DNA of 64,000 bases from Methanofollis sp. W23 (GCF_017875325.1 NZ_JAGGMN010000001.1:2128140-2192139), one strand, 5' to 3'; positions 34,388-51,771 are shown, counted from the first letter of the stretch. Made by a program: numbers and translations. Notes: generated from the letters alone by a model not told the origin.

Positions 34388-35110
34388 ATGGCAGACAAGA
34401 CATCACCAGCGAGTGGATGGCCCCTGATCAAGGGTGACTTCCACTCTGGCGACGCAAACTCGTGTGTCGCCGTTGTCACCATGGGTTCTCACCTCGACGA
34501 GCAGGGGATCTGTGATGCAGGCGCCGCACTCTGCGGTTCATGCAAGACAGAGAACCTCGGCCTGGAGAAGGTTATTGCAAACGTCATTGCAAACCCGAAC
34601 ATCAGGTTCGTCCTCCTCTGTGGTACCGAAGTCAAGGGCCACCTCTCTGGCCAGACCCTCAGCGCACTCCACGAAGGAGGAGTCGAGGGCGGCAAAGTCG
34701 TGGGCTCGAAGGGTGCCATCCCGTTCATCGAGAACCTTGATGACGCAGCGATCAAGCGCTTCCAGGAGCAGGTCGAGATCGTCAACATCATGGAGTCCGA
34801 GGACTTCGGCGAGATCAAGGCAAAGATCTCTGAACTCGCCGGAAAGGATCCGGGTGCGTTCGGCGAAGCGCCAATCGTCGTCGAGGTCAAGGAAGAAGAA
34901 GGAGGGGGCGGAGAGGAAGTCGGCGAGGCAGTAGAACTCAACGGCGACCTTGCGCTCATCCACGCCAGGTTCAAGACCATCGAGAAGATGGTGACCGACA
35001 TCGGATACCGGGACAGGTTTGCCGCCGGTGTCTACTCAGGCAAGATCGAAGGACTGATGATCGGCCTGATCGTGTCGTTTACCATCCTCGGATTCCTCCT
35101 GCTGGGGTGA
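34388..35110 (+). CDS. mtrA: Tetrahydromethanopterin S-methyltransferase subunit A (corrinoid)
   Basis: The 240-residue subunit holds the cobamide cofactor. His85 in EVKGHLSGQ corresponds to the histidine that ligates cobalt in known MtrA, and [17 protein letters not shown] is also conserved. The C-terminal part is canonical: a charged linker, then [20 protein letters not shown] and one terminal membrane helix. Over the first roughly 176 residues it is almost identical, also in DNA, to the second MtrA-type gene at 35336; only three residues differ. Confidence 0.96.
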
Positions 35111-35116
35111 TTTGAA

Positions 35117-35323
35117 ATGGCGGAAGAAGAGAAAAAGTCAACTGGCGCGATCAGGATGGCCGCGATCGACAGTATCGTCGCAGACATCCAGTACAAGTCG
35201 CAGATTATCGCCAGGACAAATAAGATCGATTCAGGCATCATGGACTCCGGGATCCCCGCCTTTACTGTCGGGTTGCTCATCTCGTTGATCCTTGTCGTGG
35301 TGCCTGTCATGGTACTAATGTGA
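35117..35323 (+). CDS. mtrF: Tetrahydromethanopterin S-methyltransferase subunit F
   Basis: The 68-residue protein has a soluble N-terminal segment (IRMAAIDSIVADIQYKSQII) and one terminal membrane helix, as in MtrF. It lies between the two MtrA-type genes, in the usual mtrF position. The ATG follows a GATTTGAA stretch without a strong ribosome-binding site. Confidence 0.9.
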   Translation: MAEEEKKSTGAIRMAAIDSIVADIQYKSQIIARTNKIDSGIMDSGIPAFTVGLLISLILVVVPVMVLM

Positions 35324-35335
35324 GGTGGGTAAGAC

Positions 35336-36067
35336 ATGGCAGACAAGACATCACCAGCGAGTGGATGGCCCCTGATCAAGGGTGACTTCCACTCTGGCGA
35401 CGCAAATTCGTGTGTCGCCGTCGTCACCATGGGTTCTCACCTCGACGAGCAGGGGATCTGTGACGCAGGCGCCGCACTCTGCGGTTCATGCAAGACAGAG
35501 AACCTCGGCCTGGAGAAGGTTATTGCAAACGTCATTGCAAACCCGAACATCAGGTTTGTCCTCCTCTGTGGTACCGAAGTCAAGGGCCACCTCTCTGGCC
35601 AGACCCTCAGGGCCCTCCACGAAGGCGGGGTCGAGGGCGGCAAAGTCGTAGGCTCGAAGGGTGCCATCCCGTTCATCGAGAACCTCGATGACGCAGCGAT
35701 CAAACGCTTCCAGGAGCAGGTCGAGATCGTCGACATCATGGAGTCCGAAGACTTCGGCGAGATCAAGGCAAAGATCTCTGAACTCGCCGGAAAGGACCCG
35801 GGTGCGTTCGGCGAAGCGCCAATTATCGTCGAGGTCAAGGAAGCCGAGGGCGGTGCGGAAGGCGGAGCAGTCGCCGGCGCAAGCCCGCAGTTCCTCGAGA
35901 TCGAGGAGAGACTCGACGAGATCGAAACGAAGATTGAGTTCGTAAACGCCGAGGTCACCCAGCGTGTCGGTCGCAAGATCGGCCGTGACATCGGTATTCT
36001 CTACGGATTAGTAGCAGGACTGATCGTCTTCATGATGCTGATATTCCTGCTCCCCAAGTTGATGTAA
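35336..36067 (+). CDS. mtrAG: MtrA-MtrG fusion: corrinoid domain joined to the MtrG helix
   Basis: The first roughly 176 of 243 residues repeat MtrA nearly exactly, including His85 in EVKGHLSGQ that ligates the corrinoid. After the linker [19 protein letters not shown] the C-terminus is not MtrA-like: [20 protein letters not shown] and [19 protein letters not shown] match MtrG, a coiled coil followed by one membrane helix. The gene occupies the place of mtrG in the order mtrEDCBAF-(AG)-mtrH, and no separate mtrG exists in the operon. So MtrG seems to have gained a whole corrinoid domain by duplication of mtrA. A corrinoid-carrying second site in the complex is the likely result; a mere assembly role is possible. 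Sequence DNA of the shared part suggests recent duplication or gene conversion. Confidence 0.9.
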
Positions 36068-36082
36068 GGAGGCAAGATCAGA

Positions 36083-37105
36083 ATGTTCAAATTCGAGAAA
36101 GAACAGGCCGTTTTCGACTTTAACGGCATCAAGATCGGTGGCCAGCCGGGCGAGTACCCAAGGGTGCTCGGCGCATCCATCTTCTACAACAAGCACGAGA
36201 CCGTGCTTGACGACCACACGGGAAAGATCGACAAGGCAAAGGCCGAGGCGCTCTGGAACCGTACGCAGGAGCTCTACGACCAGACTGGCAACCCATTCTT
36301 CTGCCAGATCATCGCCGAGTACGGCGAGGCGTTCGAGAGTTACATCGACTGGTTCTGCTCCATCGACGATAAGACGCCGTTCCTGATGGACTCATCAGCC
36401 CCAGAAGCGCTCGCTCACGCCTGTGAGTACGTCACTGAGGCCGGTATCGCAGACCGTGCGATCTACAACTCGATCAACGGTTCCATCGTCCCCGAGAACA
36501 TCGAGGCCCTGAAGAAGTCCGACGTCAACTCAGCCATCGTCCTCGCCTTCAACCCTGGCGACCCATCAGTCGCAGGGCGTGAGAAGGTGCTGGCCGAGGG
36601 CGGTGTCGCCGGCCAGGAAAAGTCCATGCTCGCGATCGCCGAGGAGTGCGGCGTCACCCGTCCGATCCTCGACACGGCGGCAACCCCGCTCGGTATGGGC
36701 TCTGGCGGTTCGTTCCGTGAGATCCTCGCCTGCAAGGCGATCCACGGTCTGCCGACCGGCGGTGCATACCACAACATGACTGTCTCCTGGACCTGGCTGA
36801 AGCGCTGGAGGAAGAGCGTCCTTGCCGGGCAGTACGAGGGCAACGATGTCCTGCTGGAGCAGATGTCCCACCACCACTTCGGCGGGATGGAAGGTATCAG
36901 GCAGACCGCATGGGCCTCCCCTGATATCGGCTGCAACATCATGGCCATGACCCTTGGCGCAGACCTGATCATGTTCGGGCCTATTGAGAACATGGAAGGT
37001 ATGGCCACGGCGGCCGCATTCTCCGACGTCGTCCTTGCCGAGGCTCTCAAGGAACTCGGCGGCGAGGTCCAGGCAGAGAAGCACCCGATTACGCTTCTCG
37101 TCTAA
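36083..37105 (+). CDS. mtrH: Tetrahydromethanopterin S-methyltransferase subunit H
   Basis: The 340-residue soluble subunit is the methyltransferase that takes the methyl group from methyl-tetrahydromethanopterin to the corrinoid of MtrA. FNGIKIGGQPGEYP at the start and RPILDTAATPLGMGSGGSFR and HHHFGGMEGIRQTAW further on are typical. It ends the mtr operon; a T-run at 37116-37123 follows the stop. The length is slightly longer than the usual 310-320. Confidence 0.95.
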   Translation: MFKFEKEQAVFDFNGIKIGGQPGEYPRVLGASIFYNKHETVLDDHTGKIDKAKAEALWNRTQELYDQTGNPFFCQIIAEYGEAFESYIDWFCSIDDKTPFLMDSSAPEALAHACEYVTEAGIADRAIYNSINGSIVPENIEALKKSDVNSAIVLAFNPGDPSVAGREKVLAEGGVAGQEKSMLAIAEECGVTRPILDTAATPLGMGSGGSFREILACKAIHGLPTGGAYHNMTVSWTWLKRWRKSVLAGQYEGNDVLLEQMSHHHFGGMEGIRQTAWASPDIGCNIMAMTLGADLIMFGPIENMEGMATAAAFSDVVLAEALKELGGEVQAEKHPITLLV

Positions 37106-37817: not shown

Positions 37818-38555
37818 TCACGCCCTCTTCTTCCCTTGCAAAAACTCCATGCTCGGCCGCACTGCCCCCGGGTCATGCACCTCGACGACGGCCGTCGCCG
37901 ACGAAGGGATGGCCGCCATCACCGCTGAAAAATCGATGCAACCGCTTCCGCAGGCGGCATGGAGATCATGTGTGCCGTCATTGTCATGGAGGTGAAAATG
38001 CACCGGCCGTGCCTCTGCAAGAAAGGCTTCAAGAGTGCCGGTGAGCACGGCATGCCCGATGTCAAGGGTAAACCCGAGTCCCAGGTCGTCAAGAAGCGGG
38101 AGGAGACTGGTGTCCCTGAAGTGGCAACAGGTCCATGAGCCCATGTTCTCGACCGCAAGGACGACCGAGACCTCGTCCTGGAGCGCGGCAAGGTCGTGGA
38201 GAGACCGTAGCAGGGCCTGTTCTGAGGCCTGCCAGAGGTGAGGTTCCATACAGAAACCAGGATGGACGACAAGTCGGCATGCCCCGACCTCGTCACAGAT
38301 CCTGGCAAGATCGGCGATCGCCTCGACCGAGGCGCACCGCATCGTCTCGTTCTCCGCAGCGAGGTTGATATCGGTGGTCGGAGCATGGACGGTATAGGAA
38401 AAGTCGAAAGAGTCGCAGGCCTCCTGGTAGAAGAACAGGGAATGGAGCGAGTCGGAGAGCACCTCGACAAGCCTGGTCTCGGCGGCAAGCAGACCAAGTG
38501 CCTCCTCGAGCGGACGGTCCATGAGGCAGTAGGTAGAACATCCAGGAAGTTTCAT
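37818..38555 (-). CDS. Sugar-phosphate isomerase/AP-endonuclease-type TIM barrel protein
   Basis: The 245-residue protein fits the xylose isomerase-like TIM barrel (AP endonuclease family 2) fold. It starts MKLPGCSTYCL and has strand motifs such as YTVHAPT, RLVVHPGF, LAVENMG, LTLDIGHA-like TLDIGHAVLTG, HFHLHDNDG and VVEVHDP, which place the metal-binding histidines, glutamates and aspartates at strand ends. Its start overlaps the extended BtuD stop by four bases, so it belongs to the corrinoid transport operon. Its substrate is unknown; a function in corrinoid or sugar metabolism is inference from position. Confidence 0.82.
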   Translation of the reverse strand: MKLPGCSTYCLMDRPLEEALGLLAAETRLVEVLSDSLHSLFFYQEACDSFDFSYTVHAPTTDINLAAENETMRCASVEAIADLARICDEVGACRLVVHPGFCMEPHLWQASEQALLRSLHDLAALQDEVSVVLAVENMGSWTCCHFRDTSLLPLLDDLGLGFTLDIGHAVLTGTLEAFLAEARPVHFHLHDNDGTHDLHAACGSGCIDFSAVMAAIPSSATAVVEVHDPGAVRPSMEFLQGKKRA

Positions 38556-39832
38556 CTCTTCCCTCTCTTCCTGAGAGCCGCAAGGTGCGCCACGAGCATG
38601 GGGATGTCTTTGACTGAGACAGCACCGCCATGACAGAGGGACGAGAAGATCGCGGTCGCCTCTCCCCCGGTATAATCACGGCTCGAGAGCGAGGAACCGT
38701 CCCGTGCCAGCACAAAAATCTTCGGGCCATGGGACTGTCCCAGGACCTTGAGATTGGCGATATTGCCCGGGCCGACCGGCATCTCGGTGATGACCACGGC
38801 GTCGACCTTCTCAAGGAGAGCAGCATATTCATCAAGTGAACGTGCAGAGACCGGTGCAAAGGGTGGTTCCTTGACGACCGGGATCCCGAGCCCTTCGGCG
38901 GTGGTGCAGTCAGAGTCGTTGGCCGAGAGGACACCGGCGGTGACCCTGTACCCCTGCGAAGAGAGGGCATACATCGTCTCGGCCCCGGTGCCCCCGCCAC
39001 AGACAACATGGACGTGCAACGGTGCAGTGTCCTGGGGCGCCGGCGCTGGCGCCGGTTCATACCGCGGGACCAGGTACGGTCTCCCGGTGAGCGGGTGGGT
39101 CCTGACCATCATCGGGACGCCAAAGACCTGCCTGATATGGGCGTCGGTGAGCACCTCTTCAGGCGAACCTGCGGCAACGATCTTTGCTCTCTCCATGAGG
39201 ATGAGGCGGTCGCAGAAGTAGGCGGCAAGGTTGAGATCATGGAAGACGGCGACCACCGTCACCTCGGGAGTGAGGCCCCTGATGATCGAGAGAACCTCGA
39301 TCTGGTGGTTGATGTCGAGATGGGAGGTCGGTTCGTCGAGGAGCATAGCCCTGGGCTGCTGGGCGAGGGCGCGGGCAATGAGCACCCGTTGCCGTTCGCC
39401 CCCGCTGATCTCGGTGATGAGACGGTCGGCCAGGTGGGCAGTGCTGGTCAGGTCCATCGCCTTCTGGCAAACGGCGTAGTCAGCCTCTTTCATCGACGAG
39501 AGCCGTCCGAGATAGGGGTGGCGACCCATCTGCACGATCTCCTCGACTGTGAACCCGAAGGAGACCATCGTCTCTTGCGGGACGGCGCCGAGTCTGGTGG
39601 CCAGTTCCCTGGGCGAATATCCGGCGATCTCTCTGCCGTCGACATAGACCGCACCGGCCGCCGGGTTGATGACCCGCGAGATCGTGCGGATGAGCGTGGT
39701 CTTCCCGCACCCGTTCGGTCCCAGGATCCCGATGAACGACCCTTCGTTCACGGCGAGCGAGACGGCGTCCAGCACCTGGACATCGCCATACCTGACATCG
39801 AGGTCCTCTGCCCTGATCATCTCTGTTGTCAT
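38552..39832 (-). CDS. btuD: Cobalamin-type ABC transporter ATPase BtuD with C-terminal extension
   Basis: The 426-residue protein starts with an ABC ATPase domain (residues 1-250): Walker A GPNGCGKTT, signature ISGGERQRV, Walker B AMLLDEPTSHLDI and a switch histidine in VAVFHDLNLAA, all of the FecE/BtuD type. Residues about 270-426 form an extra domain starting LHVHVVCGGGTGAETMYALS that looks like a Rossmann-type fold and ends LVAHLAALRKRGKR; its role is unknown. The gene overlaps the BtuC gene upstream and the TIM barrel gene downstream by four bases each. Haem or siderophore transport is possible, but the neighbouring BtuF-type protein favours corrinoids. Confidence 0.88.
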   Translation of the reverse strand: MTTEMIRAEDLDVRYGDVQVLDAVSLAVNEGSFIGILGPNGCGKTTLIRTISRVINPAAGAVYVDGREIAGYSPRELATRLGAVPQETMVSFGFTVEEIVQMGRHPYLGRLSSMKEADYAVCQKAMDLTSTAHLADRLITEISGGERQRVLIARALAQQPRAMLLDEPTSHLDINHQIEVLSIIRGLTPEVTVVAVFHDLNLAAYFCDRLILMERAKIVAAGSPEEVLTDAHIRQVFGVPMMVRTHPLTGRPYLVPRYEPAPAPAPQDTAPLHVHVVCGGGTGAETMYALSSQGYRVTAGVLSANDSDCTTAEGLGIPVVKEPPFAPVSARSLDEYAALLEKVDAVVITEMPVGPGNIANLKVLGQSHGPKIFVLARDGSSLSSRDYTGGEATAIFSSLCHGGAVSVKDIPMLVAHLAALRKRGKR

Positions 39833-40776
39833 GTCCGTGTCCTGCTCCGTAAGAGATAGATGAAGAATGGCGCTCCAAAGAACGCCGTGACGATCCCGAC
39901 CGGAATTTCATTGGGCATGGTGCGGGCAAGGGTGTCGGCCCACATCAGGATGACCGCACCGGCCATCATGGCCGAGGGGAGGAGCACCCGGTGGTCAGGG
40001 CCAACGATGATACGCATCACGTGCGGGGTGATGAGCCCGATGAACCCGATGGCCCCGGCGACCGAGACGGCGATCCCGGTGATAAATGAGGAAAGAAGGA
40101 GGAGCGCGAGTTTGAGTTTTTCGACGTCCACTCCCAGGTGCAGGGCGTCCTCCTCGCCAAGGGAGATGACATTGAGGTCCCTGGCAAAGAAGAAGAGCAT
40201 GATACACCCGACGAGAATGAGGGCGGCGACCTTGACATCATCCCACCAGACATTCCAGAGGCCGCCCATCAGCCAGAACATGATCTGGTGGAGGCTCTTG
40301 CCTGAGATGTACATCACAAAGGAGAGGAGGGCCGAGAGGAAGAGGGAGACCGCGATCCCTGAGAGGAGAAGGGTCTCGACTGCCACCCGTCCATCACGGC
40401 GCGAGATGAGGTAGACGACAATGGTCGAGGCGGTGGCACCGATGAAAGCAAAGACCGGCAGCCCCCATCCCATCAAAAATACAATCGAGAGAGACGCACC
40501 CAGGGCACCTCCCGACGACGTCCCGATGATGTAGGGGTCTGCCATCGAGTTCTTGAAGAGCCCCTGCATCGCGGTCCCTGCAGCCGCAAGCCCCGCACCG
40601 ACAAGGAGGGCAGCGAGCACTCTGGGGAGGCGGACGTCAAAGAGGATCTGGGTGATCCCGGCGGGGCCAAGGTCGAGAAGGGAGAGGCCGCTGGTCCCTA
40701 TGGCGGTGGTGAGGATGATGCTTATACCCAGGATGAGAATGAGGGTGACCAGCACGATCCAGGTCTTCTTCTGCAT
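39829..40776 (-). CDS. btuC: Cobalamin-type ABC transporter permease BtuC
   Basis: The 315-residue membrane protein belongs to the FecCD/BtuC permease family, with about nine or ten hydrophobic helices and the motifs RLPRVLAALLVGAGLAAAGT, GTSSGGALGASL and VAGAIGFIGLITPHVMR at the ATPase-contact region. It would form the import channel with BtuD. A TATA-like ACTTTATTTTCC lies about 40 bases upstream of the start. It heads the minus-strand operon btuC-btuD-TIM barrel. No BtuF is on this strand; the binding domain is on the divergent operon. Confidence 0.9.
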   Translation of the reverse strand: MQKKTWIVLVTLILILGISIILTTAIGTSGLSLLDLGPAGITQILFDVRLPRVLAALLVGAGLAAAGTAMQGLFKNSMADPYIIGTSSGGALGASLSIVFLMGWGLPVFAFIGATASTIVVYLISRRDGRVAVETLLLSGIAVSLFLSALLSFVMYISGKSLHQIMFWLMGGLWNVWWDDVKVAALILVGCIMLFFFARDLNVISLGEEDALHLGVDVEKLKLALLLLSSFITGIAVSVAGAIGFIGLITPHVMRIIVGPDHRVLLPSAMMAGAVILMWADTLARTMPNEIPVGIVTAFFGAPFFIYLLRSRTRT

Positions 40777-40920
40777 GATAGTCTTCTTAAACGTATCTTA
40801 CCCTAAGGAAAATAAAGTTACCCAAATGATTGGCACCCACGCACACTACCAGAGGGTGTGGTTCAGAGCATAAGCGGCATAGGATACAGGACCGTTTAAA
40901 TAAAAAGCGAGATGAGGCCT

Positions 40921-41112
40921 TCAGACCTCATATGCCACGAGCGACAGCCCCGGTTCTTTCTCGAAGTCCTGGATCCTCCTGAGGTCCGTGTCCTTCAGCG
41001 ACGAATAGGATGGCCTGGCGTACGCAAGGAGCGTCACTCTCATCTCTTTCTCAAGTTTTTTTACCATCTCCACCTGTTCGGGAGAGATGCTTGCATATCC
41101 CATACAGATCAT
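40921..41112 (-). CDS. Small conserved-looking protein between the two transport operons
   Basis: The 63-residue protein (MICMGYASISPEQVEMVKKL at the start) is charged, without a signal peptide or membrane helix, and has a plausible helix-strand pattern. The ATG at 41112 follows GGTGA at the right distance, and an ATATCACAATATATG TATA-type element lies upstream on the minus strand near 41150. I do not recognise a family. It sits alone between btuC and the first DUF4430 gene. The promoter and ribosome-binding site make a real gene likely. Confidence 0.6.
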   Translation of the reverse strand: MICMGYASISPEQVEMVKKLEKEMRVTLLAYARPSYSSLKDTDLRRIQDFEKEPGLSLVAYEV

Positions 41113-41252
41113 GGCATTCACCTGGCCATCACATATCCATTCGTCATATATTGTGATATGAATACTGGAGGGGGGGGCGAAGATCAGTCCTCATTCAACA
41201 CCAAACAGTCAGAATGAAGATGTATGCGTAGGTTCGTGTGGAGACTGGAAAT
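41113..41252. promoter_or_regulatory. Divergent promoter region of the small gene and the first DUF4430 gene
   Basis: The cgtcatatattgtgatatg stretch at 41141-41160 contains overlapping TATA-like sites on both strands, with atatattgtgatat being nearly symmetric. It may drive the minus-strand small gene and the plus-strand frameshifted surface protein together. Confidence 0.45.
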
Positions 41253-41952
41253 ATGAAATGGTTTTCGTGTACAGAGACGGCATCCGCCTTTCTCATCCTT
41301 CTTGCCGTACCTGTTGCGGCAACAGGATTTACCGGGTGGGAAGGAAATGTCACCCTTGATCCTGAGACGAACATCACCCTCGGGGAACATGAGACCTGGG
41401 GCGAGGCGCCAGACTACGCATCCTCGCCGATAAACGAGTCGGATGCCATCGTCAAACATCACGTCCATGATCTCCTCCAGCGGGGTATCCAGCAGAGAAG
41501 GGAATGACGGGATCGTCTGGGAGGAGGTGGCGCTCGGGCCGGGCACCTTCACCGTGACCTCCGAGAACAGGACCAAGTACGAGGTGGAGGAGCGCACTGC
41601 TCTTGGTGCCCTCAATGCTTCGAATGCCACCTATGTCCTTGACGATATGTGGTATGAGCAGTACGGCACACTGTTCATCTCGTCCATCAACGCCTTCGAG
41701 GGCGAGGGACTGGCCGGATGGGTCTACCACGTCAACGACGAGACGCCGGAGATCGGCGCCAACATCTATGCTGTGGAGGAGGGCGATGAAGTCGTCTTCT
41801 ACTACAGTAAAAGCATGTCGGCAGAGCCCGAAGACTCGGCTGAGGCGATCTACCTGAAGGTCGTCTTTGAAAATGGTGCCTCCGGTGGCTACGAGAGGAT
41901 CGTCGCCGCGAAGGGTCCTGAGAACCTCAAGGAGATACAGGATCACTCTTAA
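41253..41952 (+). pseudogene. Secreted DUF4430 (transcobalamin beta-like) protein with a frameshift
   Basis: The N-terminal part from ATG 41253 encodes a signal peptide (FLILLAVPVAATG) and a short acidic stretch, and stops at 41505. The remainder, in the next frame, gives EEVALGPGTFTVTSENR and then a complete DUF4430 domain with RTALGALNAS, WYEQYGTLFISSI and GWVYHVNDETPEIG, closely matching the 44453-46036 protein. Removal of one G in the gggg run near 41484 would join the two frames, so the gene is one base from intact. It could be a recent inactivation, phase variation or a sequence error. Alternatively, the second frame may start separately at 41443 without a signal peptide. Confidence 0.7.
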
Positions 41953-42551
41953 TCCCCTTTCTAAATTGAACATGCGACTCCTTCTGCACCCCGCTCATGC
42001 TCATACGCGTTGTATCCTGTAGGAAGAAGTGAACAGCGCGGGGAGACTCTCCTGCAGAAAAGGACAAGAACTCAAGGGAAGGGGGAGGAGGTGGCCCTGT
42101 GAAATCTTGGCATGAACCCCGGGCTCAGGCAGAGGGGATGACCATGATCGTGGGTCTCTGGATCGTGCACTGATCTGTGTTCCTCCCTGGGAGCACGACA
42201 CCACAGAGAGCACCATCGAAGGGCCGCCCCGCCTATCTTCATCCTGGGGGGTCCTGGGGGTCTCTCTCAACGCGAGACGATGGCGAAGATCCGGCGATTG
42301 AGGGCAGCAGATCTGACCGACTGCCTTCCCCTACCATCATGCCAGGGAAAGGGGCCCCTGGGGCGTATGACTGGGGGAGGGTGAAGAATCACGCTCGCAC
42401 CCTGGATAGGTGAGAGATTCTACAATGTCCTATTGTACAGGGAATTTGTCGCCTGCACGTATCTGCGAAAGCATTATAGAAAAATCTATTAACTTAACAT
42501 CAGATAATTTGTGTGAATACATGGGATAAATATTTTTATGGGGAGAAAATT
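41953..42551. other. Intergenic region with a diverged repeat and the promoter of the surface operon
   Basis: No gene is seen. A diverged copy of the inverted-repeat element may span 42093-42430, bounded by ggccctgtgaaatc and gagattctacaatgtcc. From 42440 the DNA is AT-rich with gcattatagaaaaatc near 42470, a promoter candidate for the operon that starts at 42552, preceded by a GGGGAG ribosome-binding site. Confidence 0.5.
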
Positions 42552-44456
42552 ATGGCACACTTTCCTTGTACAGGGATGATATGCATCCTTCTGATCGTTC
42601 TTGCCGCTCCTGTTGCGGCCGACTACCCGATGTTTGGCGCGGACGAAGCGCGGACCGGGGCCATTACAACAAGTGGTCCCCTGACCAATGCCACCCTCTG
42701 GGTGGAAGAGACTGCAGAGTACGCCGATGGGTCTCCGGCAGTCCATGACGGCAAGGTCTTTGTCCCGACCTGGCCGGACATGGTCTTCGACGACAACGGA
42801 CTTACAGGACTGGTCTGCTATGACGCCGCCACCGGTGAAGAACTCTGGACCAATGAACTCGGGGGCGCGGCCGTCGGGTCGGTCTCGGGCACCGCCGTCA
42901 TGGATGGGAAGATCTATCTTGGCGGGACCGACGGCAAGCTCTACTGCATCGACGAAGAGACCGGGGCAACTCTCTGGTCAAGCGAGAAGATCGACGAGAC
43001 CGGATACTTCGGGCTTTCCTCGTCTCCACTCGTATACGATGGAAAAGTGTACACTCTTTCAGCCTCTGACGGCGTACTCCACGAATTCGACCTTGACGGC
43101 ACCGAGACATGGTCGTTTACGACCGGCGGCGCGGCAGGATATTTCGTCTCACCTGCGGCGGCCGACAGGAAGGTCTACTGCTCGAACATGACCGCCCTCT
43201 TCTGTATCGACCCCTCGACGCAGGGCGAGATCTGGAACACCAGCGTCAGTGACGTCCTCCTCTCGACACCGACCGCGGGCGAGAACGCGATCTTCTGCGC
43301 CGGGGCCATCAACACCTATGCCTTCGACCGCGAGACCGGCGACGAACGCTGGAATGTATCTCTCGCCGGCACCTCATCTTCCCCTGCAGTTGACGCCAGC
43401 CACCTCTATGTCGGCGCAAAAGATGGCCTCCACTGCCTGGACACCATCACCGGTGCAGAGCGCTGGACCTTCCCCTCCGCCCAGATCACCGTCTCGCCGG
43501 TGGTCGCAGACGGGACGGTTTACTTCGCGACAAATGAAGAAACAGGGACTGTGTATGCGGTGAACACCACCACAGGCGACGAAGTATGGTCATACACCCT
43601 AGAAGCACCTGGAGACAACACCTTTGCTTCATTCTACGCCTCATCACCTGCAGTCTCAGAGGGTGTCCTGTACCTCGGGGCCGAGAACAACCACCTCTAC
43701 GCCTTCGGCGAAGGGTCACCCCATCCTGAGATCATCTTCGACGGCACGGTCAGTCTCACCGACGCCACCTTCACTTTTATCCCGTCGAACAACGCTTCTG
43801 CGTCCTATGAAGTCAACCACACCACCGACCTCGGCGCCCTCGGCGACGCCGCTGACCTTGGAGAATTCACCTTCAAGGCAAGCGACTCATGGTACGATTC
43901 ATACAGTTCCTTCAGCCTCGAATCGATCGACGGCATTGCCAACGAGGACTGGACCAACCCTGACGCACGGTCCTGGTCCATCTTCATCAACAACCAATCG
44001 GCACCCATGGGCCTTGGCAGAAACTCCCTTGACGACGGCGACCTCCTTGAGTTCTTCTACTGCCCTGTCAACGAGACGACCTATGCTCCCCTCACCGACG
44101 AGGCCGACGCCGTCGTCAGGATCCGTGTGAGCATGACTGAGGCCACACTCTCCGCACTCACCCTCACCGACGGGAACCGCGGCGGGAGCGTCCGCGCCGA
44201 TGTCACGGCCTCTGCCGTGAACGAAGGGCGGTATGTCATCGTGGTGAGCGGGACCGATGAGAATGGTGAGTCCCTTGCAGGTACAGGCACCGTCTATCTC
44301 AATACCGGCGAGAGTATCGGGGTCCCGGTCCTCGTCACCGTGCCCCTCCAGGCAAAAACCGGCACTTACACGCTCCATGCAGGCATCTACCAGATCGAAG
44401 AGTATCCCCAGCGCTGTCTCTTCATGAGCGAGGGAGTGGAATGCGCCATCACATGA
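42552..44456 (+). CDS. Secreted PQQ-type beta-propeller protein with DUF4430 domain
   Basis: The 634-residue protein has a signal peptide ending near VAADYPMFG. About 380 residues of PQQ-type propeller blades follow, with repeated GxxYCxDxxTGxxxW-like units such as LVCYDAATGEELW, LYCIDEETGATLW, VYAVNTTTGDEVW and LYAFGEG. A DUF4430-type domain (about 420-525) has DLGALGDAAD, SWYDSYSSFSLESI and SWSIFINNQSAPMGLGRNSL. A beta-sandwich tail with no obvious anchor ends the protein. The GGGGAG site before ATG 42552 fixes the start. It is the first of four genes linked by four-base ATGA overlaps. A role in capturing corrinoids at the surface is inferred from DUF4430 and context. Confidence 0.8.
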   Translation: MAHFPCTGMICILLIVLAAPVAADYPMFGADEARTGAITTSGPLTNATLWVEETAEYADGSPAVHDGKVFVPTWPDMVFDDNGLTGLVCYDAATGEELWTNELGGAAVGSVSGTAVMDGKIYLGGTDGKLYCIDEETGATLWSSEKIDETGYFGLSSSPLVYDGKVYTLSASDGVLHEFDLDGTETWSFTTGGAAGYFVSPAAADRKVYCSNMTALFCIDPSTQGEIWNTSVSDVLLSTPTAGENAIFCAGAINTYAFDRETGDERWNVSLAGTSSSPAVDASHLYVGAKDGLHCLDTITGAERWTFPSAQITVSPVVADGTVYFATNEETGTVYAVNTTTGDEVWSYTLEAPGDNTFASFYASSPAVSEGVLYLGAENNHLYAFGEGSPHPEIIFDGTVSLTDATFTFIPSNNASASYEVNHTTDLGALGDAADLGEFTFKASDSWYDSYSSFSLESIDGIANEDWTNPDARSWSIFINNQSAPMGLGRNSLDDGDLLEFFYCPVNETTYAPLTDEADAVVRIRVSMTEATLSALTLTDGNRGGSVRADVTASAVNEGRYVIVVSGTDENGESLAGTGTVYLNTGESIGVPVLVTVPLQAKTGTYTLHAGIYQIEEYPQRCLFMSEGVECAIT

Positions 44457-46036
44457 AGTGGACCCTCTCCCTCCTCTTTCTCCTCGTGCTCGCAGCGCCG
44501 GCAGCGGCGCTCACCATGGATGTCGCCGGGTCGTCCCCAGGTTCGGCCGTGACCGTCACCCTCGACACCGAGGCAAACGTGACCTTCCAGATGAACAGTG
44601 GGACACCATACTACGCCCATGGGACGACGGTGAAGTTTGTCCCGCACCTCACCGGCACACTCACGGTCACTGCAGAGGCAAAGGGCCAGAGCGTCGAAAA
44701 GAATGTCAAGATCACCTCTGGGGGCACCAATGACGGAGGAGGAGACCTCGATGACGATTCAGGACCATGGAAGACCGTCACCCTCGGTCCAGGCACCTTC
44801 AACGTAACCACCGAGAACGGTGAGGTCTATTCTGTGAAGCAACGGACCGCCCTCGGTGCCCTGGATGCCTCAGGCGCTGATTATGTCCTCGACGACAAGT
44901 GGTACGAGGAGTACGGCACGCTGTACCTCAAGTCAGTCAATGGTCGTGAAGGCGAGGGACTGGCCGGATGGGTCTATCAGGTCAACGAAAAGTCGCCGTC
45001 GGTCGGCGCCAACTCCTATAGCGTGAAGAAAGGCGACAAAGTCATCTTCTACTACAGCGAGAGCATGTCGGCAGAACCCGAAGACTCGACCGGGGCGATC
45101 TACCTCAAGGTCGCCTTCGGCACCACCACTTCAAATGGGGGCGACGGCGGCGAGGGGTCGGAGACCATACAGGAACGCCTTGCGCCGGCCGAAGATCCCG
45201 CCATCTCCCTCAACCTCCCTCAGGGCGTGACCCTGACCTTTGGTGCAGGAGGCGCGCGGATCTCGGTCCGCCAGGACGCAGGCGGCGACGGGGAGGAGGT
45301 GATCGTCAGGGGCGATCGGGTCATTCTCATACGTCCAGGGCTCCTGCTCACTGTCCTGACCGGTGATATGAAGGCAGCAGACAACTCCTCGACTGCCCGG
45401 ATAAAGAGCGTCACCGCCGAACTGATGCCTGCCGCGGCAGGACTCAACGGGACGGCCGGGACCGCAGGAAAGATCATCCTCTCTCTTGCCGGGATCCCGG
45501 CCGAAGGAGTCATCACGACAGATTTCAGCGACCTGATGTCTCCCGACATGACAGAATCCCTCACAGATCTCGCCGCCACAGAGGGACGGTCCCTCCTGGG
45601 CATCGCCTATGTGATGGACGTGAACAAGACCAACCTCAGGAACGGCGAAGACATCCTCGGTGCGACCGTCAGGATGGAGGTCGACCCTGCCTGGGTGAAA
45701 GAGCATGGTGGCGCCGGGGCCGTCAGGATCGCACACCTCACCGACGACGGGACAGTAGAACTCCTCGAGACCAGAATGGTTCAGGAGAGCGAAAAAGTTC
45801 TCACCTTCGAGGCGGAGTCCCAGAACGGCCTCTCTTCATTTGTCCCCCTCGCCCTTGGAGACAAAAAAGAGACTCCACCAGACCTGGTGACACCACTGCC
45901 GCCAGAGGCAGAGGGCGGCACGACCCCACCGACGACCCCCTCACAGCAGACGCCCTTATGGGCCCTGACACCATTTTCAGCACTCTTAATCGTGGGTGCT
46001 ACACATCTGATAAAAAGAAACGAGGAAAAAAAATGA
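44453..46036 (+). CDS. Membrane-anchored DUF4430 (transcobalamin beta-like) surface protein
   Basis: The 527-residue protein starts MKWTLSLLFLLVLAAPAAAL, a signal peptide. After an N-terminal beta-rich part come a DUF4430 domain (about 100-225; TLGPGTFNVTTENG, RTALGALDASGADYV, WYEEYGTLYLKSV, GWVYQVNEKSPSVGANSY) and a PGF-pre-PGF-like domain (about 240-470). A proline/threonine-rich spacer and a terminal hydrophobic helix ending KRNEEKK follow. The ATG at 44453 overlaps the upstream stop as ATGA. DUF4430 is the fold of the C-terminal domain of intrinsic factor and transcobalamin, so corrinoid contact is plausible but not shown. Confidence 0.82.
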   Translation: MKWTLSLLFLLVLAAPAAALTMDVAGSSPGSAVTVTLDTEANVTFQMNSGTPYYAHGTTVKFVPHLTGTLTVTAEAKGQSVEKNVKITSGGTNDGGGDLDDDSGPWKTVTLGPGTFNVTTENGEVYSVKQRTALGALDASGADYVLDDKWYEEYGTLYLKSVNGREGEGLAGWVYQVNEKSPSVGANSYSVKKGDKVIFYYSESMSAEPEDSTGAIYLKVAFGTTTSNGGDGGEGSETIQERLAPAEDPAISLNLPQGVTLTFGAGGARISVRQDAGGDGEEVIVRGDRVILIRPGLLLTVLTGDMKAADNSSTARIKSVTAELMPAAAGLNGTAGTAGKIILSLAGIPAEGVITTDFSDLMSPDMTESLTDLAATEGRSLLGIAYVMDVNKTNLRNGEDILGATVRMEVDPAWVKEHGGAGAVRIAHLTDDGTVELLETRMVQESEKVLTFEAESQNGLSSFVPLALGDKKETPPDLVTPLPPEAEGGTTPPTTPSQQTPLWALTPFSALLIVGATHLIKRNEEKK

Positions 46037-48012
46037 AGAAACTATGTGCACTCGTCATTCTCCTCTGCACCGCCTGCATCATCGGCGGTGCGGCCTACCC
46101 GCTTGCCGCAGAGGACAACACCATACAGGAGAGTCTTAACTATCTCGAATCCTGCCAGCACCCAGACGGCGGATTTGCCGAACCAGAACGGGAGACCAAC
46201 CCAGGCACCTCATGGTTTACGGTAATGGCGATCGTCGCCGCCGGCCAGGACCCCTCGACCTGGACAGTGAACGGCACCTCGGCGGTCGACTACTGGACAG
46301 CCAGCGAGGACCTCACGACCGAAGGGACTGCGGAACTCGGGCGGATGGTGACACTCATCGCTGCCGTCGGGGGCGACCCACACGACTTCGGCGGCAAAGA
46401 CTATCTTGCCGACCTGAAGGCGCAGATGAAATCCTCCGGTCAGTTCGGCGACTTCGTCTACACCACTTACTGGGGGATCTTCGGGCTTGTCGCTGCGGGT
46501 GAAGATGCGTCAAAGTCCCTCGCCTGGCTGAAAGATCAGCAGAACGAAGATGGCGGGTTTGGCTGGATGCCAGGTGCCGAAAGCGACTGCGACGACACCT
46601 CCGCATCGGTGATGGCGATGATCGCCGCCGGAGAACCACAGGACTCTCCGGCAGTGAAGAACGCACTGGGTTATCTCAGAGATGCCCAGATGGATGACGG
46701 CGGGTTCAACTACGGCGGATCCTCGTCCTCGAATGCGGCGTCGGCCGCGTGGGTGACGCAGGCGATCGTCGCAGCAGGTGTAGACCCCTCGACCTGGACG
46801 AAGAACGAGAAAGACGTCATCTCATATCTCACCGACATCCAGCAGCCTGACGGATCGTTCAAATGGACCGCCCAGGTCACCGACAACCCCTGCCGGATGA
46901 CCGCCGCCGCCGTCCCCGCCCTCCTGGGCCGACCATACCCCATCCTGCCTGGCCAGACCACACCTGCACTCTCTGGACAGACCAGGAAGGCGGAGACGAC
47001 ACCCGCCACCGCCGCAACCGCGCCGGTCGGCGCCGCCACGACAGTCCAGAATGCCGGCGGCCCCTGGGAACTGGTCACGGTCACCGACGACTTCGGTGAA
47101 AAAGTCGCCATCACAGAAGAGCCCATGCGCATCGTCTCCCTCTCCCCGGCCAACACCGAGATCCTCTTTGCCCTTGACCTGGGCGACCGCATGGTCGGGG
47201 TGACCGACTACTGCAATTACCCCGAAGAAGCCACCGAGAAGCCAAAGGTCGGCGGGTTCTCCACCGTGAACATCGAGCGGGTCGTGGCGGAGAAACCTGA
47301 CCTGGTCTTTGCCGCCCTTGGCAACACCGAAGAGGTGGTCGACCACCTCAGGAAACTTGGCCTGACCGTCGTCACCCTCAACCCCGACTCGGTCCAGGGA
47401 ACGCTCCATGACATCAGACTCGTCGGCGAGGCAACTGGCAAGGGGGCAGAGGCCGAGACACTTGCCGCCTCGATGCAGAAACGGATCAACGCTGTTGAAA
47501 CAAAAGTGGAGGACGCCCCTGAGCACCCGACCGTAATGCATGTCGTCTGGTACGACCCCATCTGGGTGAGCGGCAACAACACCTTCCAGGACGAGCTGAT
47601 CGATATCGCCAGCGGAGAGAATGCCTTCCCTGATATTGAAGGCTGGCAGATCGTCACCCTCGAAAAAGTGCTCACCACCGACCCTGACGTGATCCTGGTC
47701 AACTCTGGCACCGGGATGGACGGGGGGGAGAGCGACCTCATCTACCGGTACTTCGCCGAGGAGCCGCGCTTCCAGAACCTCAAGGCAGTGAAGAATGATC
47801 GGATCTACATTGTGCCCTCAGACATCATCGACCGCGGCGGTCCCAGGATCGTGGACGCCATCGAAATGGTGGCGGCCGACATCCACCCTGATCTCTTTGG
47901 CACAGAAGAGGAGACACCCACACCATCAGGCGCACAGACCCCAGGGTTCGGGATCTTTGCAGCACTGGCCGGGGTGGGGGGTGCATGTTTCCTCCTCAGG
48001 AGGATTGGATGA
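46033..48012 (+). CDS. Alpha-toroid plus BtuF-like corrinoid-binding fusion with PGF-CTERM
   Basis: The 659-residue protein has a signal peptide (residues 1-27). Residues about 30-300 form an alpha-alpha toroid with repeated Q-x-x-DGGF units (YLESCQHPDGGF, WLKDQQNEDGGF, YLRDAQMDDGGF, YLTDIQQPDGSF) like squalene-cyclase/prenyltransferase repeats, the same fold class as the N-terminal domain of intrinsic factor. After a threonine/alanine linker, residues about 350-620 are a BtuF/FecB-type periplasmic-binding domain (RIVSLSPANTEILFALDLGD, VGGFSTVNIERVVAEKPDLV). The end TPGFGIFAALAGVGGACFLL with RRIG is a PGF-CTERM archaeosortase signal. The ATG at 46033 overlaps the upstream stop. It is the only substrate-binding protein near btuCD. 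Confidence 0.85.
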   Translation: MKKLCALVILLCTACIIGGAAYPLAAEDNTIQESLNYLESCQHPDGGFAEPERETNPGTSWFTVMAIVAAGQDPSTWTVNGTSAVDYWTASEDLTTEGTAELGRMVTLIAAVGGDPHDFGGKDYLADLKAQMKSSGQFGDFVYTTYWGIFGLVAAGEDASKSLAWLKDQQNEDGGFGWMPGAESDCDDTSASVMAMIAAGEPQDSPAVKNALGYLRDAQMDDGGFNYGGSSSSNAASAAWVTQAIVAAGVDPSTWTKNEKDVISYLTDIQQPDGSFKWTAQVTDNPCRMTAAAVPALLGRPYPILPGQTTPALSGQTRKAETTPATAATAPVGAATTVQNAGGPWELVTVTDDFGEKVAITEEPMRIVSLSPANTEILFALDLGDRMVGVTDYCNYPEEATEKPKVGGFSTVNIERVVAEKPDLVFAALGNTEEVVDHLRKLGLTVVTLNPDSVQGTLHDIRLVGEATGKGAEAETLAASMQKRINAVETKVEDAPEHPTVMHVVWYDPIWVSGNNTFQDELIDIASGENAFPDIEGWQIVTLEKVLTTDPDVILVNSGTGMDGGESDLIYRYFAEEPRFQNLKAVKNDRIYIVPSDIIDRGGPRIVDAIEMVAADIHPDLFGTEEETPTPSGAQTPGFGIFAALAGVGGACFLLRRIG

Positions 48013-49085
48013 GAATCATCGGCCCCATCCTCTTCCTATTCTTTCTCTCGGCACTTCCCGCGATCGCGACGGCAGCGACACCTGAAGAAACACCGCTCTC
48101 TGAGGTGGCAGTCCCTGGCGAGGTGAAACAGGTTGCCTTGAATGCCGACGGCACCAGGGTGGCCGTCCTCTCAGATCAGACACTCTCATGGTACGATAAA
48201 GATGGGACACTCTCATGGCATGTCCCGGCAAACAATGTAGAGACATTCGGGGCCTCTGATGATGGGGCGCTCCTTGTCACGGGCGGCGCCGACCTCAGGG
48301 CCTATGACCACCGTGGCGACCGGGCTTTCAGGCTTGACACCGGGTATTTCGCCCTGGGGGTCGGGGTGTCCCCTGACGGTTCCTGTATCGCCGCCGGGTT
48401 TGACAACAGGAGTCTGGTCCTCTTCAGGGGCGACACCTCCAAAGACTTCGAACCTGCCTGGACGATTGAGACCTCAGAGGACGTTATCAGCGTGGCACTC
48501 ACCGACAATGGATCCTCTCTCGTAGCCTGCACCAGGGACGGGATGGTAAACGTCTACACCGGGGACGGAAGACTGCTGTGGCGCTATGACACCGGGGGGA
48601 GCGAAAGACTCACCTGCGCCGTCACCCACGACGGAGCATATATTTTCGTCGGAGCCGACCATGGAAAGGTCTTCTTGTTGAACAGAAACGGGATCCTCAT
48701 CTGGGAAGAGGTCATCGGGAAGCGCCTTCCTGCGGTCTCAATCTCGGCCGAAGGCTCGGTCATTGCTGCGGGTGGAGACGAAGGGGTCGTGCTCCGCACT
48801 CTCCAGGACGACGACCATGAGCCGTTCGGAAACAGGAGCGTGCAGGTGGTCGCACTCTCTTCCGACGGGAGAAGACTGGCGATCGCCGGACAGGGAGGAG
48901 ATATCGGATTCTTTTCGACAGGGAGAGAGGAAGGGTCGCCAGGGGCCACGCTCGCCCCCCTGGCCGCCCCTGCAGGGCGTGTCACCTCAGGGAGTAGCAC
49001 AGAACCGACCGCGACCACACACGCAAGCCCTTCCATCCTGCCAGGACTTGCAGCCGTCGCTCTCCTGTTATGGAGGAGGCGGTAA
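48009..49085 (+). CDS. Surface beta-propeller (WD40/NHL-like) protein, membrane anchored
   Basis: The 358-residue protein has a signal peptide (ILFLFFLSALPAIATAA) and about seven repeats with alternating short strands (for example VKQVALNADGTRVAVLSDQT, VISVALTDNGSSLVACTRDG, VQVVALSSDGRRLAIAGQGG), a WD40-like propeller. A threonine/proline-rich stalk and the C-terminal helix ILPGLAAVALLLWRRR suggest PGF-like sorting or a simple anchor. The ATG at 48009 overlaps the upstream stop by four bases (ATGA). A T-run at 49089-49095 ends the operon. Its partner or function is not known; it may organise the surface complex. Confidence 0.8.
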   Translation: MRIIGPILFLFFLSALPAIATAATPEETPLSEVAVPGEVKQVALNADGTRVAVLSDQTLSWYDKDGTLSWHVPANNVETFGASDDGALLVTGGADLRAYDHRGDRAFRLDTGYFALGVGVSPDGSCIAAGFDNRSLVLFRGDTSKDFEPAWTIETSEDVISVALTDNGSSLVACTRDGMVNVYTGDGRLLWRYDTGGSERLTCAVTHDGAYIFVGADHGKVFLLNRNGILIWEEVIGKRLPAVSISAEGSVIAAGGDEGVVLRTLQDDDHEPFGNRSVQVVALSSDGRRLAIAGQGGDIGFFSTGREEGSPGATLAPLAAPAGRVTSGSSTEPTATTHASPSILPGLAAVALLLWRRR

Positions 49086-49376: not shown

Positions 49377-49940
49377 ATGGACTTAGCCACCATCATAGTA
49401 ATCGCAGTCGTCGTGCTGGTCATCCTCGCCCTCATCGGCTGGATCATCAGCATCTACAACCGGTTCATGAACCTGAAAAACTCGGGCGAGGCCACCCTCG
49501 GCCAGATCCGTGTCGCCATGAAGAAGCGTCTCGACCAGATCGAGCAGCTCCTCGGATCTGTCAAGAGTTATGCCTCCTTCGAGAAGGAGACCCTCACCAG
49601 GGTCACCGAGATGCGGGCAGGCGTCGGGAAGGCCGATCCCGGCGACCTCAACGAGGTCGAGCGGCAGTCGCGCTCGATCATCGGTCGGCTCTTCGCCGTC
49701 GCCGAGGCCTACCCCGACCTCAAGACGCAGGCGACAGTCTCTGAACTGATGGCGTCCATCAGACAGATCGAGGACGAGATCGCCCGCCAGCGCTACACCT
49801 ACAACAACATCGCCCAGCAACTCAACACCATGACCGAGACGATCCCTTCCAACATCGTCGCCTCCATGGCCCATGTCCAGAGACTCGACTACCTCGAGTT
49901 CGAGGAAGAGATCGAGCAGGCGCCAAAGATCGAGTTCTGA
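49377..49940 (+). CDS. lemA: LemA family protein
   Basis: The 187-residue protein has one N-terminal membrane helix (TIIVIAVVVLVILALIGWII) and a long coiled-coil-rich body with NRFMNLKNSGEATLGQIRVA and YPDLKTQATVSELMASIRQI, typical of LemA. The biological role of LemA proteins is poorly known. It is followed at ten bases by a DUF2207 membrane protein, a pairing seen in many genomes. The ATG at 49377 follows GGTACGGTG, and a cttTCATATCC element lies about 40 bases upstream. Confidence 0.92.
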   Translation: MDLATIIVIAVVVLVILALIGWIISIYNRFMNLKNSGEATLGQIRVAMKKRLDQIEQLLGSVKSYASFEKETLTRVTEMRAGVGKADPGDLNEVERQSRSIIGRLFAVAEAYPDLKTQATVSELMASIRQIEDEIARQRYTYNNIAQQLNTMTETIPSNIVASMAHVQRLDYLEFEEEIEQAPKIEF

Positions 49941-49950
49941 GGTGGACGTG

Positions 49951-51771
49951 GTGAGTGAAAACCGGCAGATCGCCACCCTCCTCATCGTCACCCTTTTTCT
50001 CGGCGTTGCGGCCCTCGGCCTCAGCGCCGCTCTGCCCTTCCTCACCGAGGGCGACCTGGTCGTCGACGATTATCAGGCGGTCCTGTACGAGAACGGCACC
50101 TTTGTCGAACGCTACACCTATGACGTCGCGCGCTCTGATGAGTACAGGATGCTCTTCCGCTTCTTCGACGACCGCCTCACCTTTGCCGATGCGTCAAGTC
50201 CGCACGTGAAGTTCGAGGAGATGACGGTACCAGAGGGAGTGATCGGATACGTGAAGGACGCCTCTGGTGAGGTCAGGACCTACCCGACCGCGACCGAGGC
50301 CGAGACCGAGTTCATCAGGAGCAAGGCCTATCCCAACGAGGTCGGGCTCTACAACCCTGGATATTTCGACGCAGGCACATATGTCGTCGAGTACCACTCG
50401 GTCATGCGCCCACCGGTGGAGTACGACGGCGAGGTGGCCCATGTCAACCTCAAACTCGTCCGCGAGCATATCCCGTACCGCCACCTCACCCTCACCCTCC
50501 CTGACTGGGAGGGGATCGAGACGGTCTATGCCTACCCGCCCTGGCTCTCGGTCGAACGGCAGGACGGGACGGTGACGATCACAGGTAGTGCCGCCGCAAA
50601 CGATCCCGTGGCGGTCGAACTCCTCCTGCCTCTCTCCTACCTGGACCAGACGAGCGGGTTCCCGCACCCGGTCGACGACCTGAGACAGAAGACCGAAGAA
50701 GGCGCCTTCTGGTATAACTTCCCGTACCATGCGGCCTCGGTCTTCCAGACGGTTGCGGCCTTCCTGGTCCTCGTCCTCCCCTTCGCGCTCCTCCTCCTAT
50801 ACCGCAGGTATGGGCGGGAGAAGACCTTCACTGTCCCCGAGTATCTCAGTTTCACGCCCAACACCGCCCTCAAACCCTGGCAGGTGAACCTCCTCTTCAA
50901 GGGGGACGTGAATGAGTCAGACGAGGACGCCTTCTACGCCACGCTCCTCGACCTCCACAGGCAGGGCGTGGTCACCGTCAGGGAGAAGGACGATGCAAAG
51001 GGGATCACGGTCACGGTCAACCGCGGCCATTCAGACGACCCCTATGAACAGCGGGTGCTCAACTACATCTCCGGTGTCGGGGGCAACGGGGTCTTTGACT
51101 CTGGTGAACTGGAGAGGATGGCAACGCGGGCGGCAGAGGGCAGGGCCGACCTGGCCACGGTGCAGGGCTACCAGCGGAGTCTCCAGGCGCTCTTCAACCC
51201 GACAGACACGCGCCTCTCCAGGAAGTACGCGGTGGACGGCAGGAAGTTTGTCTCACCCCTCCTCTTCCCGCCTGCATTCCTCCTCGGGCTTGCAGTCCTG
51301 GTCTTCGTGCTTGCCCCGGCCACCGGGGCGGCGTCGGTGCCGGCGATCGTCCTCTCGGTCGCAGGGCTCGTCGAGGTGGGCATCGCCCTCCTGATGCCCT
51401 CGACCCTCTTTGGCCACTGGAAGGGCGACCACTTCAAGGAAAAACTGGAATGGGAAAGTTTCGAGAATTTCCTCTCCGACATGGCGCAGATCCAGAAGTA
51501 CGCCCCAGAAGACCTCTCGATGTGGGGCGAGTGGATGGTCTACGGCACCGCCCTGGGCCTGGGCGAGCAGGTCGAGAAGGCGATGGAGCACCTGCATGTC
51601 TCCTATGCCGAGGTGGGGATGCCGGTCTACTCCCATATGCCCCTGGCCTTCATACCGATCGCTCACTTCTCCGCGCCCTCCACCGGCAGCGGTGGCGGCG
51701 GCTTCGGTGGTGGAGGGGGCGGTTTCGGTGGCGGCGGCGGCTTCGGCGGTGGCGGCGTCGGAGGGCGTTGA
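49951..51771 (+). CDS. DUF2207 membrane protein with glycine-rich tail
   Basis: The 606-residue protein has an N-terminal signal-anchor helix (ATLLIVTLFLGVAALGLSA), a large extracytoplasmic beta-rich domain to about residue 255 and a helix (VAAFLVLVLPFALLLLY). A cytoplasmic part and two further helices near 430-470 follow, and the tail is GGGGFGGGGGGFGGG-like. This is the DUF2207 (YciQ-like) architecture. GTG at 49951 is chosen because GAGGTGG lies correctly upstream and overlap with lemA is avoided; the longer frame would begin inside lemA. Function is unknown; its partnership with LemA is by context. Confidence 0.88.
   Translation: MSENRQIATLLIVTLFLGVAALGLSAALPFLTEGDLVVDDYQAVLYENGTFVERYTYDVARSDEYRMLFRFFDDRLTFADASSPHVKFEEMTVPEGVIGYVKDASGEVRTYPTATEAETEFIRSKAYPNEVGLYNPGYFDAGTYVVEYHSVMRPPVEYDGEVAHVNLKLVREHIPYRHLTLTLPDWEGIETVYAYPPWLSVERQDGTVTITGSAAANDPVAVELLLPLSYLDQTSGFPHPVDDLRQKTEEGAFWYNFPYHAASVFQTVAAFLVLVLPFALLLLYRRYGREKTFTVPEYLSFTPNTALKPWQVNLLFKGDVNESDEDAFYATLLDLHRQGVVTVREKDDAKGITVTVNRGHSDDPYEQRVLNYISGVGGNGVFDSGELERMATRAAEGRADLATVQGYQRSLQALFNPTDTRLSRKYAVDGRKFVSPLLFPPAFLLGLAVLVFVLAPATGAASVPAIVLSVAGLVEVGIALLMPSTLFGHWKGDHFKEKLEWESFENFLSDMAQIQKYAPEDLSMWGEWMVYGTALGLGEQVEKAMEHLHVSYAEVGMPVYSHMPLAFIPIAHFSAPSTGSGGGGFGGGGGGFGGGGGFGGGGVGGR

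Follow-up and report, generated by a model that had tools for sequence, protein, structure and literature searches.

The locus at positions 37818-49085 of a 64,000-nucleotide stretch of Methanofollis sp. W23 DNA (GCF_017875325.1, NZ_JAGGMN010000001.1:2128140-2192139; the whole stretch is called the window here) combines genes for a putative ATP-binding cassette (ABC) importer of the BtuFCD type with genes for exported proteins containing DUF4430, alpha/alpha-toroid and propeller domains. The question that it raises is what these surface domains do for the importer and which ligand they serve. In animals, vitamin B12 is carried by intrinsic factor and transcobalamin, and also by haptocorrin. 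We consider it likely that the locus is a cell-surface capture and salvage system for corrinoids (vitamin B12-type compounds), in which a binder made of DUF4430 and toroid domains feeds BtuFCD. The original prediction, made from the sequence alone, had proposed such a surface module, and it is supported by the fold of DUF4430, by single-chain proteins in Archaeoglobales, by linked CbiZ or CbiR-like genes and by co-occurrence across genomes. Three independent lines point to corrinoid as the ligand, namely the DUF4430 fold, the CbiR-like or CbiZ genes in the operons, and the plain btuC-btuD-cbiR-btuF operons of genomes that lack the surface module.

The DUF4430 domain and its toroid partner

An alignment profile of DUF4430 gave no significant match to PDB sequences, and a fold search was therefore used. 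The AlphaFold (AF2) model of the DUF4430 domain encoded at 44441-46036 (pLDDT 92) was compared with the PDB by Foldseek, and the 18 best matches were exclusively transcobalamin, haptocorrin, intrinsic factor and 3u7z, a bacterial DUF4430-like domain labelled putative metal-binding (E 0.006-0.12, probability 0.90-1.00, TM about 0.4-0.57). These E-values are modest; it is the unanimity of the matches to the model that is telling. On this predicted structure, the window DUF4430 is the beta domain of the transcobalamin beta-grasp fold. The toroid was modelled with 12 helices (pLDDT 92.5), and its top 50 structural matches in the PDB were terpene cyclases, prenyltransferases and one glycosidase, with class II terpene cyclases best. 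The structural comparison with intrinsic factor that had been proposed earlier supports the DUF4430 half; for the toroid, the modelled fold class fits the other half of a transcobalamin-like protein and does not point specifically to transcobalamin.

Relatives of these proteins tie the two domains together. A toroid-only search across the phylum gave the 12 Archaeoglobales-type loci that were read, and in every one of them DUF4430 and the toroid share a single open frame, with BtuF adjoining in 11. The fused genes lie beside PQQ-DUF4430 and BtuF genes and often BtuC/BtuD; in Geoglobus and Archaeoglobus they encode a chain of ~770 residues with DUF4430 (e.g. 9e-16), the toroid (SQHop_cyclase_C 3.3e-19) and a signal-like N-terminus, while BtuF is separate and adjoining. 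The window DUF4430 shares 38% identity with its counterpart in the Archaeoglobus fusion. Since the two domains form a single chain in relatives, the neighbouring window proteins should, by the Rosetta-stone argument, work together. A tree of toroids gives the BtuF fusion one origin (99/93) and sets it against the forms that are separate or fused to DUF4430.

Conservation was surveyed in 20-kb neighbourhoods from four GTDB families of the order Methanomicrobiales. A block of btuC, btuD, often a CbiR-like gene, PQQ/DUF4430, DUF4430, toroid-BtuF and a WD propeller recurs around 59 distinct toroid domains, which is more than chance. In 53 of these 59 loci the toroid has a DUF4430 of this type no more than 5.5 kb away, and the other six are on short, truncated or broken contigs or belong to divergent gut strains. 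Part of the locus set was found with a BtuF-containing query, and BtuF adjacency is biased there. The PQQ/DUF4430 propeller is a conserved partner across loci, and in Methanofollis, as in many further loci of Methanomicrobiaceae, the WD40-like propeller follows the fusion. Across 199 genomes of the order, 46 had strong toroid and DUF4430 hits together, three had DUF4430 alone, five the toroid alone and 145 neither (Fisher p = 1e-35, uncorrected for shared ancestry), in agreement with the co-occurrence among methanogens that the original prediction had named as a check.

The importer and its putative corrinoid-remodelling genes

A FecCD permease, an ABC ATPase and a periplasmic-type binding domain are all present in the window. 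When NCBIfam models were ranked, the permease scored highest as vitamin B12 BtuC (339 bits; next, F420-0 permease, 245) and the ATPase as a corrinoid ATPase (366 bits versus 267 for haem), corrinoid models coming first for both among siderophore, haem and F420-0 models. For the window BtuF, the BtuF model came second, behind a PGF-anchored subfamily. The likeness to a BtuFCD corrinoid importer lies in these three domains and in a linked remodelling gene, while the N-terminal toroid on the window BtuF is a difference.

The best NCBIfam match of the TIM-barrel protein encoded beside btuD is NF041277 CbiR (64.3 bits, 1.2e-17), and its His, Asp and Glu positions, which we take to be the metal site typical of the AP endonuclease 2 superfamily, are invariant in 18 homologues. 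The order btuC-btuD-cbiR is found in many Methanomicrobiales loci, including module-free ones, and where the module is missing, members of the order have the plain operon btuC-btuD-cbiR-btuF. In several Archaeoglobales operons CbiZ, a corrinoid amidohydrolase, stands where Methanomicrobiales have the CbiR-like gene, and it occurs in 6 of the 12 Archaeoglobales-type loci from the toroid-only search; locus L132, for example, reads btuC-btuD-cbiZ-PQQ/DUF4430-DUF4430/toroid-btuF (CbiZ PF01955 2.1e-44).

Two candidate markers were set aside during this analysis. Homologues of the CbiR-like superfamily were found at a loose threshold in 197 of the 199 genomes owing to paralogues, which makes the superfamily unsuitable as a co-occurrence marker. 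CbiD was tried as a sign of auxotrophy, and since this genome and most toroid-bearing genomes carry cbiD, salvage dependence is not indicated. As a separate observation, CbiZ is encoded divergently from or beside btuF-btuC-btuD operons at L121, L122, L116, L139 and L140, and some of these operons also carry a CbiR-like gene, giving two remodelling enzymes in one locus.

Alternatives, proposed mechanism and known B12 carriers

Several findings weigh against surface capture of corrinoid and have to be set beside this evidence. Where the surface module is concerned, DUF4430 repeats also occur in several loci without Btu genes, a distant clade (L176-L180) has the toroid, DUF4430 and PQQ propellers with no BtuF nearby, and no transcobalamin-family entry is among the top 50 structural matches of the toroid, whose sequence matched squalene-hopene cyclase and prenyltransferases with no match to transcobalamin. 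Such findings would be expected if BtuFCD imports corrinoid while DUF4430, the toroid and the propellers form a non-binding surface scaffold or adhesion structure (e.g. for S-layer docking) that holds BtuF. Archaeal surface proteins often contain propellers and DUF4430 repeats, and the toroid-BtuF linker is of low complexity. We nevertheless regard such a scaffold as unlikely, since the modelled DUF4430 fold is precisely that of the B12-binding beta domains, one clade has DUF4430 and the toroid as a fusion, the co-occurrence of the two domains is close to one to one, and conservation of the toroid is strong around particular polar residues.

The remaining points concern the ligand. All three Btu proteins miss the equivalog cut-offs (BtuC 339/461, BtuD 366/537 and BtuF 121/234 bits). 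The CbiR-like protein falls below its cut-off of 105 bits and is a divergent homologue of the CbiR of Mok et al. 2020, whose survey had one taxon as its sole archaeal entry (PMC7733943), and a second, unlinked CbiR homologue in the genome scores nearly as well (52 bits). The host probably makes corrinoid itself, and because it has cbiD (de novo B12) and a CbiZ homologue, salvage would supplement synthesis. Together with a slightly higher score of the F420-0 model for Archaeoglobus BtuD, the missed Btu cut-offs and the presence of cbiD leave some room for another tetrapyrrole or metal chelate (haem, a siderophore, coenzyme F430 or an F420 precursor) as the cargo, the corrinoid names then reflecting general FecCD/BtuF similarity. 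Burroughs, Balaji, Iyer and Aravind 2007 likewise doubted a B12 role in archaea, which usually make B12, and suggested a distinct metabolite (PMC1796856). Cargo of this kind appears improbable to us given the CbiZ and CbiR-like genes in the same operons, the DUF4430 fold and the preference of the window BtuC and BtuD for corrinoid models. Another reading makes the toroid an enzyme of the class II terpene cyclase type, active or decayed, with a surface isoprenoid substrate and no relation to corrinoid. It would account for the top structural matches of the toroid and for a DxDDT motif (46585-46599) that aligns with the acid motif of squalene-hopene cyclase and is kept in 53 of the 59 toroids, but it is hardly credible when six Methanocorpusculum toroids lack the motif and keep the BtuF fusion, the domain is part of exported proteins that also contain BtuF or DUF4430, and the linked genes are corrinoid genes.

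Our verdict is that the locus probably represents a conserved module for corrinoid capture, made of two parts and grafted onto BtuFCD. If so, an exported DUF4430 protein and the toroid of toroid-BtuF may be the two halves of a transcobalamin-like binder: the toroid would hold a corrinoid, and the DUF4430 beta-grasp domain would close over it. Being fused to the toroid, BtuF could receive the ligand in its cleft, from which it would pass via BtuCD into the cell. The CbiR-like enzyme, or CbiZ in Archaeoglobales, could then strip unsuitable lower ligands, allowing the cell to convert the corrinoid to its own form of cobamide, for instance for the neighbouring MtrA, a protein that carries corrinoid. 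The propellers may serve as a scaffold or, like BtuG in Bacteroides, increase the capacity for capture.

Like transcobalamin, intrinsic factor and haptocorrin, the archaeal proteins are exported and pair a beta domain of the same predicted fold with an alpha/alpha toroid; in Archaeoglobales a single chain carries both. They differ in that the window has the halves on separate proteins, with the toroid fused to BtuF, in that the Archaeoglobales chain has DUF4430 first and the toroid second, in that the archaeal toroid is closer to terpene cyclases than to known B12 carriers, and in the linkage of the archaeal module to an ABC importer. A functional likeness is found in Bacteroides, where the beta-propeller BtuG and BtuH bind B12 at the surface (PMC6143338, PMC8941943); these surface proteins, propellers included, capture B12 before the transporter, whereas the archaeal locus lacks a TonB system. 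BtuG-like propellers were considered, and for either propeller the listed PDB sequence matches were designed propellers, BamB, quinoproteins and WD40 proteins, with no BtuG among them.

The DUF4430 domain of the window is the same as that of the transcobalamin-like clade of the SLBB superfamily, which Burroughs et al. 2007 defined. That paper names euryarchaeal members, describes propeller and toroid fusions and paralogous neighbours, and proposes B12 scavenging for bacteria, whose members are linked to CbiO/CbiQ-type genes; the text consulted mentions no link to BtuFCD, to a toroid-BtuF fusion or to CbiR/CbiZ (PMC1796856). A later paper on the archaeal locus was not found in the open-licence literature. 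What is new here is the toroid-BtuF fusion, the linkage to BtuCD and CbiR/CbiZ and the single-chain form in Archaeoglobales, which turn the question of 2007 towards corrinoid. To our knowledge, surface B12 capture of this type is not known in archaea that make their own B12.

We tentatively suggest, as a possibility that falls a little short of an even chance, that archaea possess a transcobalamin-type corrinoid carrier wired directly into an ABC importer, split in Methanomicrobiales (DUF4430 plus toroid-BtuF) and single-chain in Archaeoglobales, and that the animal carriers are one branch of an older microbial design for surface capture. The B12-binding toroid may then have been recruited from terpene cyclases, since it retains the cyclase acid motif. 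In these operons, archaeal transcobalamin-like domains are tied to BtuFCD and to two enzymes of corrinoid remodelling that are unrelated to each other, and the ligand question thereby becomes directly testable. If the proposal is true, methanogens and Archaeoglobales would compete at the cell surface for external corrinoids despite their own synthesis, which matters for how cofactors are exchanged among anaerobes in communities. Archaea would then also supply close functional analogues, and possibly relatives, of the B12 carriers of animals.

Gene layout and neighbouring genes

Genes and domains were called from open reading frames with Pfam and NCBIfam. The two gene sets of the locus are divergent and face away from each other (Table 1). 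In the minus-strand set, where BtuC, an extended BtuD and a TIM barrel had been read correctly, neighbouring coding regions overlap by 4 bases, as at the start of the CbiR-like gene, which overlaps the end of btuD. The toroid-BtuF fusion and the propeller expected on the plus strand were likewise recovered by these calls.

Table 1. Features of the proposed corrinoid-capture locus and the adjoining end of the mtr operon (window coordinates)
Feature	Position	Strand	Supporting matches
CbiR-like TIM barrel (AP endonuclease 2 superfamily), putative cobamide-remodelling phosphodiesterase	37818-38555	-	Pfam AP_endonuc_2 7.9e-26
BtuD, ABC ATPase with ~160-residue C-terminal extension	38552-39832	-	NCBIfam PRK09536 corrinoid ABC transporter ATPase, 366 bits, 2.4e-109
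BtuC, FecCD-type permease	39829-40776	-	Pfam FecCD 2.6e-90; NCBIfam vitamin B12 BtuC 339 bits, 3.9e-101
Probable frameshifted DUF4430 relic	41253-41952	+	Signal peptide 41253-41507; DUF4430 41443-41952, other frame
Exported PQQ/BamB-type propeller with DUF4430-like domain	42552-44456	+	PQQ_2 7e-40; DUF4430 0.0019
Exported DUF4430 protein, PGF-pre-PGF-like region, C-terminal membrane segment	44441-46036	+	DUF4430 7.9e-14; domain at about 44756-45115
Exported alpha/alpha-toroid fused to BtuF, PGF-CTERM anchor	46033-48012	+	Prenyltrans 1.3e-13; Peripla_BP_2 1.4e-42; NCBIfam BtuF 3.9e-35; toroid at 46102-46992
Exported WD40-like propeller, C-terminal membrane segment	48009-49085	+	WD40 1.2e-10
mtrH, end of neighbouring mtr operon (corrinoid-dependent methyltransferase), context	36083-37105	+	Pfam MtrH 1.1e-96

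All four intact plus-strand genes encode hydrophobic, signal-peptide-like N-termini, and three of the four exported proteins have C-terminal hydrophobic segments. DUF4430 is confined to this locus in the 2.9 Mb genome. Three exported DUF4430 proteins had been expected here, of which the 44441 gene and, with a weak domain (19.0 bits, Pfam cut-off 23.8), the 42552 gene stand; both have export signals, as do the other two intact genes. The third is frameshifted, the signal-peptide frame running from an ATG at 41253 to a stop at 41507, out of frame with DUF4430. In its DUF4430 DNA this relic matches the 44441 gene at 76% identity, its signal-peptide DNA is similar to that of the 42552 gene, and a neighbourhood comparison found it to be absent from the two nearest congeners. 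The most plausible reading is a mosaic duplicate that has decayed.

A search of the window at the gathering threshold found no cobalamin riboswitch or other Rfam element. Immediately 3' of the locus (49377-51771) are genes for LemA and a DUF2207 membrane protein, an ordinary pair without a link to corrinoid. Elsewhere, the distant relatives L176-L180 put the toroid, DUF4430 and PQQ propellers to a different use, with the toroid and DUF4430 in a single protein of >1,800 residues in L179 and L180, and one Methanofollis sp. metagenome-assembled genome (L040 / L104) has a second, divergent set of DUF4430 and toroid-BtuF with a propeller protein of >1,800 residues.

The mtr operon, with calls for MtrA, an MtrA-MtrG fusion and MtrH, adjoins the locus as the original prediction had it, and the adjacency is kept in the other Methanofollis loci whose flanks reach mtr; mtr also adjoins plain btuCD operons in Methanoculleus-type loci. 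The MtrA genes are in tandem (34388-36067), with nearly identical N-terminal halves and the second fused to MtrG. Such MtrA doublets recur in Methanofollis and in Methanoculleus-type loci, which suggests gene conversion.

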